The notes beneath the pieces are model-generated. The model ran no database searches. It was not told the DNA's origin and saw nothing but the letters and a program-made list of their open reading frames with translations. From the NCBI GenBank assembly GCA_027491155.1, contig JAIXWR010000020.1, positions 62,001-126,000 on the forward strand: a DNA stretch of 64,000 nucleotides, written 5' to 3'. Shown here in pieces: positions 18,478-26,787 of this stretch. The translations under genes and the position numbers were made by a program. Positions within the stretch are counted from its first letter, which is position 1; every line of letters starts with the position of its first letter. This DNA comes from Verrucomicrobiaceae bacterium. GTDB taxonomy: Bacteria; Verrucomicrobiota; Verrucomicrobiia; Verrucomicrobiales; Akkermansiaceae.

Positions 18478-18774
18478 TCAACGTGTCGCTTGTGCAAGCA
18501 GCTTCACGTACTTTCCCGGGCTCTTCCGGAACTTTTTCAAGCACGGCTTGCAGCAGAACTCGAAGACCTGGGCGTCGTGCACCGTCGAGATCCGGTCGTC
18601 CATCTCGTCGAGGTCGTCGCCGGTGACGAGACAGGTTTCCAAGGGGTAAGGCTTGGGCTCGGGCGCAGCCTTCCGCCCGGTTTCCTTCGCCACGGGCGCC
18701 GCCCCGGCCGGGGCAGGCGTCGTGGCGCAGGAGGCGAGACCGAAGGCGAGCAGCAGTGCGAAGGAGGTTTTCAT
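18478..18774 (-). CDS. Small YHS-like metal-binding lipoprotein
   Basis: 98 residues with a lipoprotein signal (LLLAFGLASC). After a Pro/Ala-rich linker comes YPLETCLVTGDDLDEMDDR, then VFEFCCKPCLKKFRKSPGKYVKLL. The TCxV...FCCKPCxxKFxxxPxKY pattern is that of secreted YHS/TRASH-like domains, where the cysteines are thought to bind copper or other soft metals. It is a paralogue of the gene before it, whose stop it overlaps by 4 bp (ATGA), so the pair is translationally coupled. It is the last gene of the copper island. Confidence 0.82.
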   Translation of the reverse strand: MKTSFALLLAFGLASCATTPAPAGAAPVAKETGRKAAPEPKPYPLETCLVTGDDLDEMDDRISTVHDAQVFEFCCKPCLKKFRKSPGKYVKLLAQATR

Positions 18775-19013
18775 GGCAGCTTCGCAAGATACTTCTGCGG
18801 GTCCTTCTCGAACTTCGCGACGCAGGGCTTGCAGCAGAATTTCACTTCCTGGTCCGCATAGACCTTCGTCACCGGCGTCCCCATCGAGCCGAGCTTGTTG
18901 TCGCTGACGATGCAGGTGTCCTTGGGATAGGGCTTCACGTCGCTCCCCGCGGTGCCGGTGGCGGCACAGGAGGCGAGAAACGCGGAGGCCATCAGGGTCA
19001 TGATCGATTTCAT
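18771..19013 (-). CDS. Small YHS-like metal-binding lipoprotein (paralogue)
   Basis: 80 residues, lipoprotein signal with LASC, then YPKDTCIVSDNKLGSMGTP and VKFCCKPCVAKFEKDPQKYLAKL. It is a YHS-like domain with four conserved cysteines, without the Pro/Ala linker of its neighbour. It lies 22 bp downstream of the multicopper oxidase fusion and overlaps the next gene by 4 bp. Its location suggests periplasmic copper buffering or delivery; that role is inferred. Confidence 0.82.
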   Translation of the reverse strand: MKSIMTLMASAFLASCAATGTAGSDVKPYPKDTCIVSDNKLGSMGTPVTKVYADQEVKFCCKPCVAKFEKDPQKYLAKLP

Positions 19014-19035: not shown

Positions 19036-21084
19036 TTAGAAGCGGAAGCTCACGCCGCCGCCGAAGCCGTGTTCGGAATGGTACTGGGTGATCAGGGAGA
19101 ATTGCTTGGTGAGGAGCCAGTCGGCGCCCACCGTCCATTCCCACTCGCTGCCTGTGTCGTATTGGATGTCGCCGAAGATCCCGAGCCGGTCGGTGATCTG
19201 CAGCGACTTGCCGAGGCCGACCCGCAGGTCGCCCTCGCTGTCGAGCTGGAGCGAGCTGTCGATGAGGTAGGGCAGACGGTATTCGATCCCGGCGAACGCA
19301 CGGTCCTCCTCGTCCTCCAGGTTGGTGAAGCGCCAGCCGAGCACGGTGGAGAAGTTCGGGTTGAAGTAGCGCTTCCAGCCGAGGTCGATCTCGTATTCGA
19401 CGTCGTCATGCTCGTGGTGCATGCCGCCCATCATCATCGCGGGGTCGTCGTGGAAGCCGAGATCCCACATCGCGAACCAGTCGTTGCGCGAGTTCATCAC
19501 GGTGACCATTCCCATGCTCATGTGGTTCTGCAACGAGCCGTCGATCATGAAGTAAAGCGGGTCGCGGGCATGTTCGCCGAGCTGCGGCTGATGGTCCGGC
19601 CCCTGTTCCTCGTAACTGAAGACCCGCGCCATTCCGGAGTGCATGTGGTAGAGCAGGTGGCAGTGGAAGAGCCAGTCGCCGCTCTCGTTCGCCTCGAACT
19701 CGATCGTCCGCTTGCCCATCGGCGGGACGTCCACCGTGTGCTTCAGCGGCGCGTCGCTCTCCTGCCCTTCGAGCACCCGGAAGAAGTGGCCGTGCAGGTG
19801 AAGCGGGTGGTGCATCATCGTGTCGTTCACCAGCACCAGGCGCAGCACCTCGCCGCGCTTGATCTTGATCACGCCGTCTTCGGCCATCGTCCTGCCGTTG
19901 AAGGACCAGATGTAGCGCTCCATGTCGCCGGTGAGCCGGAGTTCCATCTCGCGCCGCGGCAGGGAGGCCGGGAGCGCGGTGGACTTCACGGCGCGCAGCT
20001 TCGCATAGGGCGACAGCGGGCGCTCGGCTTCTTCTTTCATCGAAGCCGGATCCATCTCGTCCATCGCCGCCATCAGGTGCGCGTCCATCGAGTAGATCTC
20101 CGGCCGCGGGATGTCGGGCGCGGGGTGCAGCTCGCCCTCGCCCAACAGGATCGACGCATGGCCGGAGCCGTCCTGGGAGGTTGCACGGACTTCCCATTGG
20201 CCGGATGCGGGGACGGTGACGATCACGTCGTAGGTCTCCGCCATGCCGATCAGCAGGCGCTTCACCGCGAGCGGCCTGACCGCCGGACCGTCGGCGGCGA
20301 CAATGGTCAGCGGTCCGGTGGCGGACTGAAGGTAGAAGTAGGTCGAGGCGCCCGCGTTGATGAAACGGAGCCGGACCTTTTCGCCGGGCCTCGCCGGGAA
20401 CGAGATCGACTTCCGTCCGTTGGCGAGGAAGGCGTCGTAGGCGACGTCGGAGACATCCATCGCCGGCATCCGGGTGCGCTCGCGGTCCCAGAAATCGGCG
20501 AGCGCCCCGGCTTTCATCGCACCGGTCACGCTCTGCATGCTGCCCTTGCGCAGCGCGTACCAATCGCTGCCGCGCATCAGCGTGCGCATCACCTCGTCCG
20601 GGTTCTCCCGGGTCCAGTCGGACAGCACGACGACGTGGTCGCGGTCGGCCTTCACGGGTTCGCCGCCCTTCGGCTCGATCACGATGGAGCCGTAAACCCC
20701 GCGCTGTTCCTGGAGGCCGGTGTGGCTGTGATACCAGTAGGTGCCGGCGTGCTTGAGCGGGAACTCGAAGGTGTGGGTGGTGCCGGCCTCGATCGGCGGG
20801 GTGGTGACATAGGGCACGCCGTCCTGCACGTTCGGCAAGAGCAGGCCGTGCCAGTGGATCGAGGTTTCCTCGTTCTTGAGCCGGTTGTGGACGCGGATCC
20901 GCGCGCTGTCGCCTTCGCGGAAACGAAGGGTCGGTCCCGGGATCCCGCCGTTGAGGGTCAGGGCGGGGACCGGCTTGATCCCGTCGCCGGGCGACCACGC
21001 TTGCTCGGCGACGGTGAGGTCGTATTCCACCAGCCGGGCGTCCAGGACTGAAAGCGACAGGATGAAGATGAGGATGGTTTTCAT
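19036..21084 (-). CDS. CopA-CopB fusion: multicopper oxidase with C-terminal outer-membrane CopB-like domain
   Basis: 682 residues. A Sec-type signal (MKTILIFILSLSVLDA) replaces the Tat signal usual in CopA. Residues about 20-495 are a multicopper oxidase with all four copper motifs: HWHG (77-80), WYHSHTG (117-123), HPLHLHG (426-432) and HCHLLYHMHSGM (474-485). A Met-rich loop (about 333-349) resembles Cu(I) sites. From about 500 to the end the sequence switches to a CopB-like beta-barrel region with DLGWKRYFNPNFSTVLGWRF and EYRLPYLIDSSLQL. It is preceded by MMMGGMHHEH and ends in phenylalanine as outer-membrane proteins do. Its ATG overlaps the permease stop (ATGA). It probably oxidises Cu(I) while tethered to the outer membrane. 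Confidence 0.88.
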   Translation of the reverse strand: MKTILIFILSLSVLDARLVEYDLTVAEQAWSPGDGIKPVPALTLNGGIPGPTLRFREGDSARIRVHNRLKNEETSIHWHGLLLPNVQDGVPYVTTPPIEAGTTHTFEFPLKHAGTYWYHSHTGLQEQRGVYGSIVIEPKGGEPVKADRDHVVVLSDWTRENPDEVMRTLMRGSDWYALRKGSMQSVTGAMKAGALADFWDRERTRMPAMDVSDVAYDAFLANGRKSISFPARPGEKVRLRFINAGASTYFYLQSATGPLTIVAADGPAVRPLAVKRLLIGMAETYDVIVTVPASGQWEVRATSQDGSGHASILLGEGELHPAPDIPRPEIYSMDAHLMAAMDEMDPASMKEEAERPLSPYAKLRAVKSTALPASLPRREMELRLTGDMERYIWSFNGRTMAEDGVIKIKRGEVLRLVLVNDTMMHHPLHLHGHFFRVLEGQESDAPLKHTVDVPPMGKRTIEFEANESGDWLFHCHLLYHMHSGMARVFSYEEQGPDHQPQLGEHARDPLYFMIDGSLQNHMSMGMVTVMNSRNDWFAMWDLGFHDDPAMMMGGMHHEHDDVEYEIDLGWKRYFNPNFSTVLGWRFTNLEDEEDRAFAGIEYRLPYLIDSSLQLDSEGDLRVGLGKSLQITDRLGIFGDIQYDTGSEWEWTVGADWLLTKQFSLITQYHSEHGFGGGVSFRF

Positions 21085-22205
21085 CGGTTCAGCAGCCAGG
21101 CGATGATCAGGACCTGCGGCACGGTGATCAGCGGCAGGGCGAGGGTGGCTTTCCACGAGCGGGTGGTTTCGCGGAGGACCAGGATCTCGGTGTAGTCGGT
21201 GGCCACTCCGGCCATCAGGAAGGTGAAGGCGTTGCCAGGCGCGCCGGCCCGGTTCAGGAGGTCGGCGGCGATCGGGCTGGACCCTTCCGAGCAGACCTCG
21301 ATCACCGTGGTCACGACCAGGGTCAAAGTCAGGCCGAGCAGGGTCGGGCCGAAGTACTGCGAGAATAGTGCTTCCGGCACGAAGGCGCGGATCGCCGCGG
21401 CCAGCACCACGCCGAAGAAAATCCAGCGCAGGATCATCCGCGAATCCTTCAGCCCGCCGAGCGCGATCGCCTTGAGGTTGGCGGCGGTCGGCTTGAGGTC
21501 GTGCAGCGCTTCCTTGAAAGCGGGGCCGAAGCGGAATCCGGCCGGCAGCTCGCGGGCGTTCGGATTGGCCGGCAAGGTCCCGCGCTTCACCAGCAGCTCG
21601 GCGATCCAGCCGGTCAGCACGCCGATGGCCATCGACAGCCCGATGAACGCGAGCATCCACTTCCAGCCGATCAACGCGGCGAGGATGAAGGTCAGGGACA
21701 GCGAGTTCCAGGGGCTCGAAACCAGGAAGGCGAGGGTTTGTCCCAGCGACGCGCCCTTTTTGTAAAGCTGTGCGCCGACCATCAGGATGCCGTGGCTGCA
21801 AAGGTCGAGCAAGGTGCCCGCGAACACCGCGCGGAGGATGCCGGTGAAGGTCCCGCCGCGTCCTAACAGCCCGGTCACCAGCGACTGCGGCATCCGGCCG
21901 ATCACCCCGACCGCGACGATCCCCGCGAGGAGTCCCCACCATGCCTTGGCCATGAATTCGGCGGTTCCGTGGGCGAAGGTGAGCCACCAGACGGGCCCGG
22001 GAACCATCAGGAAGTGCCCGGCCAATCCCGCCGCCACCAGTGCCAGCGAGCCCCACAGCAGACCGTCGAACTTGCGGCCCGGGGTGCAGCAGGACGACGG
22101 CTCTTCACCGCCGCTGCCGCAGCAGGACGGCTTGGTCTCCGGGGCCGGAGCGCAGCACGAGGGCCGGGGTTCCGGCTCCGGAGGCGGCTTGCAACAGGAG
22201 CTCAT
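21081..22205 (-). CDS. Permease of the ArsP/SO_0444 metal-efflux type with N-terminal Cys-pair repeats
   Basis: 374 residues with about eight to ten membrane helices. The core (GILRAVFAGTLLDLCSHGILMVGAQLYKKGAS, VSSPWNSLSLTF, TVIEVCSEGSSPIAADL, NAFTFLMAGVATDYTEI) matches DUF318/permease proteins such as the SO_0444 Cu/Zn efflux family and ArsP. The first 45 residues are a hydrophilic tail with four CC pairs at 4-5, 17-18, 28-29 and 39-40, likely a metal-capture arm on the cytoplasmic side. It lies 18 bp downstream of csoR and overlaps the oxidase start by 4 bp. Its ion is probably copper, by context. Confidence 0.85.
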   Translation of the reverse strand: MSSCCKPPPEPEPRPSCCAPAPETKPSCCGSGGEEPSSCCTPGRKFDGLLWGSLALVAAGLAGHFLMVPGPVWWLTFAHGTAEFMAKAWWGLLAGIVAVGVIGRMPQSLVTGLLGRGGTFTGILRAVFAGTLLDLCSHGILMVGAQLYKKGASLGQTLAFLVSSPWNSLSLTFILAALIGWKWMLAFIGLSMAIGVLTGWIAELLVKRGTLPANPNARELPAGFRFGPAFKEALHDLKPTAANLKAIALGGLKDSRMILRWIFFGVVLAAAIRAFVPEALFSQYFGPTLLGLTLTLVVTTVIEVCSEGSSPIAADLLNRAGAPGNAFTFLMAGVATDYTEILVLRETTRSWKATLALPLITVPQVLIIAWLLNR

Positions 22206-22223: not shown

Positions 22224-22499
22224 TCAGGCGAGGCGGCGCTTGTAAAGGGTCACCAGTTCCTCGAGGCGGCGGTCGAGCTGCTTCGGGTCGGAGGCCGCTT
22301 CCGCGACGCAGTGGCGGACGTGGTCCTCCAGCAGCGCGGCCTCCAGGCCGCGCAGGGCGGCGTGGATCGCGGAGATGGTGTGCAGGATTTCCGGGCAATC
22401 GCGGTTCTCCTCGATCATCCGGCCGATCCCCTGGACCTGGCCGGCGATCCGGTTGACCCGGCCGGTCAGGGGCTTGCGCTCGCAGCAGTCGCGCTTCAT
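22224..22499 (-). CDS. csoR: CsoR-type copper-sensing repressor
   Basis: 91 residues of the CsoR/RcnR/FrmR family of all-helical tetrameric repressors (LTGRVNRIAGQVQGIGRMIEENRDC). The metal site is the C-H-C pattern of Cu(I) sensors: Cys in NRDCPEIL, then His and Cys four apart in EDHVRHC. An N-terminal CC (residues 4-5) is extra. Start at the ATG before KRDCCERK; an upstream in-frame ATG would run through the operator. First gene of csoR-permease-oxidase-YHS. It presumably represses its own operon until Cu(I) binds. Confidence 0.9.
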   Translation of the reverse strand: MKRDCCERKPLTGRVNRIAGQVQGIGRMIEENRDCPEILHTISAIHAALRGLEAALLEDHVRHCVAEAASDPKQLDRRLEELVTLYKRRLA

Positions 22500-22504
22500 A
22501 AGAA

Positions 22505-22552
22505 TACCAATAGGGGGTAAGGGTATAATCCGCAAGCGAGATTTTCGCGCAA
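22505..22552 (-). promoter_or_regulatory. csoR promoter and CsoR-type operator
   Basis: On the minus strand a -35 TTGCGC (22547-22552) and -10 TTATAC (22523-22528) are 18 bp apart. The palindrome TACC-CCCTATT-GGTA (22505-22519) lies just after the -10, where transcription would start, only 5 bp before the csoR ATG. It resembles known CsoR operators (TACCC...GGGTA). With so short a leader, no Shine-Dalgarno is possible, so csoR may be translated from a nearly leaderless mRNA. Confidence 0.65.
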
Positions 22553-22581: not shown

Positions 22582-22923
22582 TTACTTCGACTTGCCCGCC
22601 TTCACCTTGGCGAAGCTTTCGGCGGAGCGTTCGACCTTCTTCGGCTCGAAGCCCGACTTCTTGATGAAATCGGTGATCTCCTTGTCGCTGATCGAGGCGC
22701 CTTTCTTCTCCTCCAGCAGGACGAGCTTGCGGGTCAGGTCCACGTGGATGTCGGAGACCGCCGGATGCTTCTTGAAGTGGGCGACGATGCCCTGCGCGCA
22801 GAACGAGCAGACCATGCCGTCGACGCTGGCCTTGACGGTCATGACGCGGTCGGGCGCGGCGCGGGCGGTGGTGGTGGCGAAGAGCCAGGCCCCGATGAGA
22901 CTGAGCAGGATGGGATGATTCAT
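22582..22923 (-). CDS. Exported heavy-metal-associated (HMA) domain protein
   Basis: 113 residues. A signal peptide (about 1-22, ending ARA) is followed by a MerP/CopZ-like ferredoxin fold. Its metal motif is GMVCSFCAQGI (Cys39, Cys42), then VSDIHVDLTRKLVLL and a second helix. The CxxC is in the periplasm, so it likely buffers or shuttles Cu(I) between envelope partners. A lysine-rich C-terminal tail (about 95-113) follows. It lies 13 bp downstream of the outer-membrane protein gene, so the two are co-transcribed. csoR begins 82 bp later with its own promoter. Confidence 0.85.
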   Translation of the reverse strand: MNHPILLSLIGAWLFATTTARAAPDRVMTVKASVDGMVCSFCAQGIVAHFKKHPAVSDIHVDLTRKLVLLEEKKGASISDKEITDFIKKSGFEPKKVERSAESFAKVKAGKSK

Positions 22924-22936
22924 TTTCGTGATTTTG

Positions 22937-23557
22937 TTAGAAGTGGACCATGAAGTTCAGCAGCGGCGCGCCTTCGAGCGAGCAGCCGAGTTCCAGGAAG
23001 TAGTTGCCCTTGAACAGGCGGATCTTCGGGATGACATCGAGGTCGTCCTCCATGCCGCTGACGTGTTCGAGCTGGAGGATCAGCCAGGTGTTGAGTTCCT
23101 CGAATTCCGCCTTGTAGGGCGCGAAACCGATCGAGGCGCTGGTGACCCCGCGCGAGACGTCCTCGGACCCGACCAGCTTGGTTTCGAAGGCGGTGAAGAT
23201 CCGGCGGGTTTCGTAGTCGGCGCGGAAGAACCCGAGGCCGGCGGGGGCCCAGGGATCGCCGTCCTGTTTCGCGAGGCCGGCGGCGGCGCCGAGGTAGACG
23301 TTGGCCTGGGCGTCGGGCAGGTTCCAGCGCTTGAGCAGCCAGTTGTGCTGGAGCCCGGCGAAGAGGTCGTCGGCGCGCTCGTCCTCGAAGCGCATCGCGT
23401 GGAGGCCGAAGGCGGTCTTCGGGGTGTAGGAGTGGTAGAGTTCGAAGTTCTGCACCGTGTCGGTGCCGCCGAGCATGAGCTGGTACGCTCCTTCGAAGGA
23501 GACGGGATGCGCGGCGGCCACCCCGGCGAGCAGGATGGATAAAGAAAGGGATTTCAT
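22937..23557 (-). CDS. Predicted outer-membrane beta-barrel protein in the copper island
   Basis: 206 residues with a short signal peptide ending AAA-HP. The mature protein alternates polar and hydrophobic residues with aromatic girdles (YQLMLGGTDTVQNFELYHSY, ANVYLGAAAGL, NTWLILQLEHVSG). It ends with ...NFMVHF, whose terminal Phe is the outer-membrane-protein recognition signal. It may be an eight-stranded barrel. I do not recognise a named family. The HMA gene follows after 13 bp, which ties it to metal handling. Confidence 0.7.
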   Translation of the reverse strand: MKSLSLSILLAGVAAAHPVSFEGAYQLMLGGTDTVQNFELYHSYTPKTAFGLHAMRFEDERADDLFAGLQHNWLLKRWNLPDAQANVYLGAAAGLAKQDGDPWAPAGLGFFRADYETRRIFTAFETKLVGSEDVSRGVTSASIGFAPYKAEFEELNTWLILQLEHVSGMEDDLDVIPKIRLFKGNYFLELGCSLEGAPLLNFMVHF

Positions 23558-25862: not shown

Positions 25863-26309
25863 TTACTTCGCCTTCACGATGATCTTGCCCTGCATCTTGT
25901 CGAAGTGCCCGGGCGAGGAGCAGAAGAACGGGTATTCGCCGGGTTCGCCGGCGGTGAAGGTCATGGTGGCGGTTTGTCCGCCGCCGATCAGCTTCACGTG
26001 GCCGACCATCTGCTCCTTCGACTCCTTGTCGGTCGGCACGTAGCCGGTCTCCGCAGCCGCGAGGCATTTCACCGCGAAGGACACGATGGTGGTACCCGGC
26101 TTGAGCACCACCACGTTGTGCTTCATGGACTTCTCGCCCTTGGTGCCGGTGTTCTTGAAGACCAGCGTGACCTTCTGGCCGCTGACGACTTCGAACTTCG
26201 TCTTGCTGAAGACCATCCGGTCGTCAGCGCTCAGTTCCAGCTTCACCGCCTCCGCCGCATGGGCGGAGACGGCGGCGAGGAAAACGATCGGGGCGAGGAA
26301 TCCGCGCAT
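25863..26309 (-). CDS. Azurin-like blue copper protein
   Basis: 148 residues with a signal peptide ending AHA (18). The mature cupredoxin has the four type-1 copper ligands His64 (MKHNVVVL), Cys130, His135 and Met139 (FFCSSPGHFDKMQG), the azurin spacing. It carries electrons in the periplasm between c-type cytochromes and oxidases or reductases. It lies 4 bp after a cytochrome c gene on the same strand, its likely partner. A terminator follows. Confidence 0.93.
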   Translation of the reverse strand: MRGFLAPIVFLAAVSAHAAEAVKLELSADDRMVFSKTKFEVVSGQKVTLVFKNTGTKGEKSMKHNVVVLKPGTTIVSFAVKCLAAAETGYVPTDKESKEQMVGHVKLIGGGQTATMTFTAGEPGEYPFFCSSPGHFDKMQGKIIVKAK

Positions 26310-26313
26310 GGCC

Positions 26314-26787
26314 TTACTTCTTGTGCGAGGCGGCGGTCTTCTCGAGGTCGGCGCGAAGCACCGGTGCCTTGATGTCTTTGAACATCTCGCGGAACTTCTT
26401 GGCGTCCTCCGGGGTCACGACGTCGGCCTTGTTGCCGAAGGAATTGCGGACGTAGGTCATCACGCCGGCCAGTTTCTCGTCGTCGAGCGTGGCTTCCAGC
26501 GGGGCCATGATGCCGAGGACCGCGGTGTTGGCCGGGTCCTTCTGGATGCCTTTCAGCACGGAAAGGGCGAACACGGCCGGGTCGCCCGTGGCGATTTTCG
26601 AACCCGCGAGCGTGGGGGCCATTTTCTTGTCGGGGCCGACCGCGACGCCCTGGCCGTCGGGACCGTGGCAAGCCATGCAGGTGGCAAAGCTGGCCTTGCC
26701 GATTTCAATGAGCTTCGCCTTCTGGGCCTCGTCGGCCGAGGCGCTGAAAATCGAGGCGGCGAGGATGGGAAGAAGGAAGTGCTTCAT
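26314..26787 (-). CDS. Periplasmic c-type cytochrome, class I
   Basis: 157 residues with a signal peptide ending SADE-like (about 18). One haem motif CMACH at 37-41 and a likely axial Met in GIMAPLEATLDD near 94. The C-terminal about 40 residues (FREMFKDIKAPVLRADLEKTAASHKK) are a charged helical extension beyond the usual domain. It forms a two-gene unit with the azurin gene 4 bp downstream, so the two probably exchange electrons. The terminal oxidase or reductase they serve is not in the window. Confidence 0.9.
   Translation of the reverse strand: MKHFLLPILAASIFSASADEAQKAKLIEIGKASFATCMACHGPDGQGVAVGPDKKMAPTLAGSKIATGDPAVFALSVLKGIQKDPANTAVLGIMAPLEATLDDEKLAGVMTYVRNSFGNKADVVTPEDAKKFREMFKDIKAPVLRADLEKTAASHKK

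Follow-up and report, generated by a model that had tools for sequence, protein, structure and literature searches.

The stretch of DNA analyzed here (the window; 64,000 nucleotides from a Verrucomicrobiaceae bacterium, contig JAIXWR010000020.1, positions 62,001 to 126,000) carries a gene that joins a multicopper oxidase to a CopB-like outer-membrane barrel. The gene lies on the minus strand (21084→19036) and comprises 682 codons plus the stop codon (19036..21084) in a stop-free frame. An earlier note on this DNA had claimed such a fusion in one 682-residue frame, and Pfam domains, tail matches, and the predicted fold agree on it. The coordinates given there were right, but the strand was not: the plus-strand frame at 19036-21084 is unrelated to the oxidase. 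The protein starts with a Sec-like signal peptide lacking a twin arginine (residues 1-16 by eye, MKTILIFILSLSVLDA; 21037..21084, minus strand like all following parts). Three oxidase domains follow, namely Cu-oxidase_3 (residues 29-139, 20668..21000, Pfam E 7e-43) with the copper ligands of HWHG and YHSH, Cu-oxidase (residues 149-305, 20170..20640, E 5e-19), and Cu-oxidase_2 (residues 376-493, 19606..19959, E 9e-37) with those of HPLHLHG and HCHLLYHMHSGM. A linker (residues 494-510, about; 19555..19605) leads from the end of the last Pfam domain to the first strand of the 12-stranded barrel (residues 511-682, start about 511; 19039..19554), which ends in Phe, as the earlier note had stated.

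The four copper motifs, which the note had described as intact, are present, and their ligand residues H77, H79, H119, H121, H426, H429, H431, H474, C475, H476, H480, and M485 were invariant in 29 aligned relatives. The protein thus contains the three Cu-oxidase domains and all copper ligands that characterize CopA/PcoA. The best NCBIfam model was copper_res_A (TIGR01480), which scored 425.4 bits and thereby stayed below its curated cut-off of 478.95.

The barrel was more difficult to assign. The hidden Markov model search proposed in the earlier note recovered the three Cu-oxidase domains, and the CopB model (PF05275) aligned weakly to the tail, over about residues 559-635. The window tail alone gave an E value of 0.035 and 14.1 bits, below the gathering cut-off of 27 bits. 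Failure of the CopB model to align, listed in the note as a reason to drop the claim, was discarded as an objection, since the model does align, if weakly. Among 22 diverse tails, 14 matched CopB at E up to 0.1 (best 2.2e-6), while 11 matched the general OMP_b-brl family (best E 0.0018) and 11 matched DUF481 (best E 0.0032). Four relatives of the tail exceeded the CopB cut-off with 29.4-32.9 bits; one of these, P0143, shares 48% identity with the window tail over 97% of the tail. A profile-profile comparison of 26 tails with seven separate verrucomicrobial CopB rows resulted in a P value of 0.0002 and a probability of 45%. Another exported protein of the window served as control and gave P 0.41, which is the weaker test because the control was a single sequence. 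Searches against PDB sequences did not list PcoB, either with the single tail (weak matches only, the best being porins at E 0.003) or with the tail profile (a designed barrel at E 0.0043).

The AlphaFold2 model of the tail consists of 12 strands, and a structure search with it returned E. coli PcoB (7pge) first, tied in Z score with the porins VhGalP and KdgM. The structure prediction suggested in the earlier note thus bore out the proposed barrel; the PcoB fold with its 12 strands was seen in the predicted structure only. A fold search with the full-length protein was uninformative, its list being taken up by laccases and other oxidases. We conclude that the relationship between tail and CopB is beyond chance, though weak for the window sequence alone, because 14 of the 22 tails match, relatives pass the Pfam cut-off, and the predicted fold agrees.

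The join itself was placed differently from the earlier note, which had regarded the Met/His-rich stretch MMMGGMHHEH as a hinge between the two parts. This stretch (residues 550-559; 19408..19437, minus) forms a low-confidence loop that connects strand 3 of the predicted barrel to strand 4, on the side of the long loops, presumably the outer one. It therefore lies within the barrel and is no inter-domain hinge; the real joint is the linker at about residues 494-510. The disordered, Met/His-rich N-terminal domain that belongs to CopB/PcoB ahead of the barrel is not present in the protein, which has the short linker in that place. The length of the linker differs among the aligned relatives. In one subgroup, including P0080, P0105, and P0116, the linker is extended by a Cys-rich insert (CTDxCCVP), at alignment columns of about 600-640. 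A sequencing or frameshift artefact at the join was also rejected. In total, 202 proteins matched residues 485-682 at E up to 1e-5, the 120 listed being mostly full-length proteins with Cu-oxidase domains, and 30 of 34 tail matches within the phylum sit in open frames of 682-1022 residues. A sequencing error thus does not account for the join.

We then compared the export signals, which were judged by eye and pattern with the start codons taken as given. Truncated frames and near duplicates (L002, L007-L036, L048, L082, L084, L085, L088, L089, L091, L095, and L096) were excluded from this census and from the first tree described below. The pattern for the twin-arginine translocation (Tat) pathway was found in nine of ten separate CopA/PcoA proteins (L078 being without it) versus two of 43 fused rows. 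Both fused cases (L004 and L057) are doubtful, as the pattern lies upstream of a Met that starts an ordinary Sec-like signal. An RR pair that departs from the Tat pattern is present in two other fused proteins, L098 and L102, within the signal region or close to it. Neither inspection nor pattern revealed a twin arginine in the window protein, in accordance with the Sec rather than Tat signal postulated earlier. A protein destined for barrel insertion cannot be exported in a folded state, and the Sec-like trend of the fused proteins agrees with this requirement. From the missing Tat signal it is predicted that copper would be loaded in the periplasm. By eye, a Cys marks the end of the signal peptide in L090, L098, L099, and L102, which would be in line with N-terminal lipidation in addition to anchoring by the barrel.

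To describe the distribution of the fusion, 387 genomes of the phylum were surveyed, as the earlier note had recommended. The tail was detected in 29 of them at E up to 1e-5. A CopA-like oxidase (TIGR01480 at E up to 1e-60, with at most three candidates scored per genome) was counted in 37. Eight of these possess an oxidase above the family cut-off, and in each of them CopB is encoded separately at a distance of 150 to 646 nt. The other 29 encode only oxidases below the cut-off, and the tail was seen in every one, in 26 by tail search and in three (G027, G030, and G033) by frame length, with frames of 774-793 residues that extend 216 residues beyond the last HCH motif. Two cases among these deviate: the tail of G113 (L095) is interrupted by a stop, and G086 (contig C31) has two copies, one of which shows the tail match in a different frame (198 residues) from the oxidase (710 residues). 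Two genomes, G268 (L022, in-frame stop in the tail) and G259 (a fragment), showed tail matches without an oxidase in the CopA-like census. G375 combines a fused copy with a canonical CopA-CopB pair in a stretch of about 6.5 kb (contig C7:154527-160947).

The window genome encodes three fused copies, the one described here and two adjacent ones on contig C9. No separate CopB was found in this genome with PF05275: its one match (E 3.3e-4) is a fused copy, and a second search gave no match in this genome. The C9 oxidases (L006, 6555-8561 and 9069-11405) lie, by eye, near a gene for a resistance-nodulation-division (RND) pump, AraC-type regulators, and an outer-membrane factor; the second contains MDHS-type Met/His repeats within the oxidase.

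Outside the phylum sample, a tail query of assembled-genome contigs identified 26 loci, mostly from Verrucomicrobiota, with two labelled Planctomycetota, one Nitrospinaceae, and three uncultured. On plasmids, 25 records had a match covering at least 80% of the fusion protein; apart from Ilyobacter, Spirosoma, and Ornithobacterium, we take their hosts from the genus names to be Bacteroidota. The taxonomy read for these three assigned Ilyobacter to the Fusobacteriota and the other two to the Bacteroidota. The Ilyobacter plasmid fusion matched with 42% over the full length. A tblastn search with the tail only returned five plasmid records at E up to 1e-3, and a query with the Akkermansia-type tail retrieved 164 proteins, the names among the 120 listed including Akkermansia muciniphila, Flavobacterium, and Chitinophaga. 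Most fused rows from outside the phylum sample were recovered by tail query or near-full coverage and so could hardly have been unfused; the CopA-like census of the 387 genomes is the less biased test. We conclude that, within the phylum, oxidases of this lineage are as a rule fused, and that other phyla have the fusion too. Besides Akkermansia, the architecture is represented in Bacteroidota, Fusobacteriota, Planctomycetota, and Nitrospinota. The rarity implied by the earlier note was not supported.

The relationship between fused and separate oxidases was analyzed with trees of the oxidase domains. In a first tree of 54 rows, the ten separate CopA/PcoA proteins formed one clade with 100/100 support, and two label changes were needed; the outgroup, labelled separate, was a very distant Ilyobacter oxidase with a branch of 9.55. 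A second tree of 41 rows left out this outgroup and 12 other rows, mostly close kin of retained ones. Here, a single branch divided 32 fused from nine separate oxidases (100/100, and 100% of 200 bootstrap trees). Only two plasmid PcoA proteins stood for unfused CopA beyond the phylum. In the sampled tree, the fused oxidases thus look like a lineage distinct from separate CopA/PcoA. A single origin of the fusion is not proven thereby, because few outside unfused CopA proteins were included and the tail had been the search key for most fused rows of other phyla.

Directly downstream of the fusion gene lies a gene for a small YHS/TRASH-like lipoprotein of 80 residues (18771..19013, minus) with a lipobox recognized by eye and a CC-x-PC motif. 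It is followed, with a 4-nt overlap, by a gene for a second small exported YHS/TRASH-like protein carrying the same motif (18478..18774, minus). Relatives of the first YHS-type gene follow 32 of 45 fusions, not all of them independent loci, within 330 nt of the stop codon. The 13 fusions without it, some of which have little downstream DNA, comprise the second copy on C9 and those resembling it (L081 and L083), three of the Akkermansia type, two from Bacteroidota, those of Ilyobacter and Nitrospinaceae, and L047, L052, and L098. In the window genome, all four members of this YHS family sit at the two fusion loci, one member being 3 kb upstream. Around ten canonical CopA/CopB systems, a clear YHS match was obtained only at G375, which also has a fusion; the canonical system on plasmid L107 gave a weak match of 18 residues (E 0.005). 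A search of the literature library consulted returned no paper joining "YHS domain" to "multicopper oxidase".

Upstream of the fusion, a permease and a repressor are encoded, as are two exported proteins, one of them of the HMA type. The Cys-rich ArsP_1-type permease (21081..22205, minus), the end of whose gene overlaps the start of the fusion gene by 4 nt, resembles SaoE and SO_0444 Cu/Zn efflux proteins but scores below both cut-offs. Family matches identify the repressor (22224..22535, minus) as metal-sensitive and of the CsoR/RicR/FrmR kind. The exported HMA-like protein (22582..22923, minus) is CopZ/MerP-like, below cut-offs. These upstream genes are present in just two to five of 32 related loci, some of which are short. 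The same cluster encodes an exported protein of 206 residues (22937-23557, minus) that appears barrel-like by eye and has no Pfam or NCBIfam match; among the 32 loci, it occurs only in L037 and L038. Genes for an azurin-like cupredoxin (25863-26309, minus; Pfam Copper-bind E 3e-16) and for what looks by eye like a small cytochrome c (26314-26787, minus) are located a few kilobases upstream.

The fused frame, the intact ligands, the barrel homology and predicted fold, the absence of a Tat pattern, the conservation, and the copper-type neighbours are established here. We infer that the gene product is, with good probability, a copper oxidase integrated into the outer membrane. The chain would leave the cytoplasm unfolded via Sec, and its CopB-type 12-stranded barrel would be inserted into the outer membrane, presumably by the barrel assembly machinery (BAM) with the C-terminal Phe as a guide. 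The inserted barrel would keep the three-domain oxidase on the periplasmic side; a tethering of this kind, proposed in the earlier note, is predicted by the presence of oxidase and barrel in one chain. Loaded with copper at the periplasmic face, the oxidase would convert Cu(I) to Cu(II) beside the barrel, in the way assumed for the separate partners PcoA and PcoB.

Whether copper also passes through the barrel is a separate matter. Tentatively, and with more doubt than belief, the protein may be a self-contained oxidise-and-export unit: an oxidase on its own copper-conducting barrel, through which Cu(II) would exit across the outer membrane, supplied with copper by the YHS-domain lipoprotein. 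Dedicated delivery of this kind is suggested because a protein exported by Sec has to receive its metal outside the cytoplasm. Such a unit would be an alternative to Tat-exported CopA with a separate CopB across several phyla, including gut Akkermansia. The barrel might instead be a mere anchor that holds the oxidase at the outer membrane and carries no copper, which we consider a serious possibility, if short of an even chance. The acidic pair D97/E207, given as the copper site in a description of PcoB (PMC9210255), is not evidently kept in the tails (low-identity MAFFT alignment), and the barrel is shorter than the 7pge PcoB chain, with about 172 versus 198 residues. However, E565, R572, R595, R603, D615, R621, K626, R633, D643, E649, and K660 are invariant charged barrel residues in 29 sequences, seemingly more than an anchor needs.

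An N-terminal passenger in front of a C-terminal 12-stranded barrel also recalls autotransporters, which would place the oxidase on the cell surface. Two of the 22 tails gave a weak YadA_anchor match, and the relative P0153 matched PF03797 below the cut-off (E 0.0024). Yet PF03797 had no match in the window tail (E up to 1) or in the 22 tails (E up to 0.1), PcoB, VhGalP, KdgM, and OmpLA outscored autotransporter barrels in the structure search, and strand 1 comes after a short linker and not after a long helix, which makes surface display very improbable. Cleavage of a fused precursor into separate CopA and CopB could account for the variable linker length, as a processing site might show it, but the fusion is retained across the sampled lineage, and we regard processing as hardly more probable. 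The substrate, finally, could mainly be Fe(II) or another electron donor in place of Cu(I). A published passage proposes, without experiment, that PcoAB is a porin-oxidase pair oxidising Fe(II) (PMC5566968); the neighbours in the window (CsoR-kind repressor, HMA protein, YHS proteins, and Cu/Zn-type permease) are of the copper type, so that this option seems unlikely, if less so than display or processing. An outer-membrane-integrated Cu(I) oxidase is thus the reading we prefer.

The fusion architecture is not new but known in passing. A 2012 paper mentions fused PcoA-PcoB for five Legionella species; it also describes that pcoA and pcoB co-occur in gammaproteobacteria, mostly contiguously, with 19 genomes having pcoA without pcoB (PMC3548706). 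A 2024 report refers to the Bizionia argentinensis oxidase G2EDV6, with three Cu-oxidase domains and a C-terminal porin-like region (611-809) of some PcoB similarity (PMC11213822). According to a 2025 study on Caulobacter, PcoA stability requires the PcoB N-terminal domain, and docking was proposed from the stability data (PMC12509749). In the texts concerned, authors are divided on the direction of copper flow through PcoB. What merits pursuit is the separate lineage, the Sec-like export, and the YHS partner. Fusions in several phyla lend genomic support to PcoA/PcoB as a physical unit and offer a single-chain protein for testing the PcoA-PcoB contact, and periplasmic copper loading might be the task of the conserved YHS neighbour. 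The names shown for full-length members cite the oxidase only (for instance "multicopper oxidase domain-containing protein", "FtsP/CotA-like multicopper oxidase", and "copper oxidase"), and the barrel is therefore easily overlooked.

Like the published fusions, the window protein combines the oxidase and a C-terminal PcoB-like porin region in one chain. By their published descriptions, the Legionella proteins are from another phylum, and the Bizionia protein, reported in passing, is longer. E. coli PcoB (7pge), the top structural match, likewise has 12 strands; identity is 14%, its acidic pair is not evidently kept, and it has a flexible N-terminal region in the position where the window protein has the oxidase. 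With CopA/PcoA (TIGR01480) and separate CopB/PcoB (PF05275), the window system shares the oxidase fold, the copper ligands, the CopB-type barrel, and the paired function. It differs in having one gene instead of two, a Sec-like instead of a Tat signal, scores below both family cut-offs, and an oxidase on the other side of the oxidase tree.
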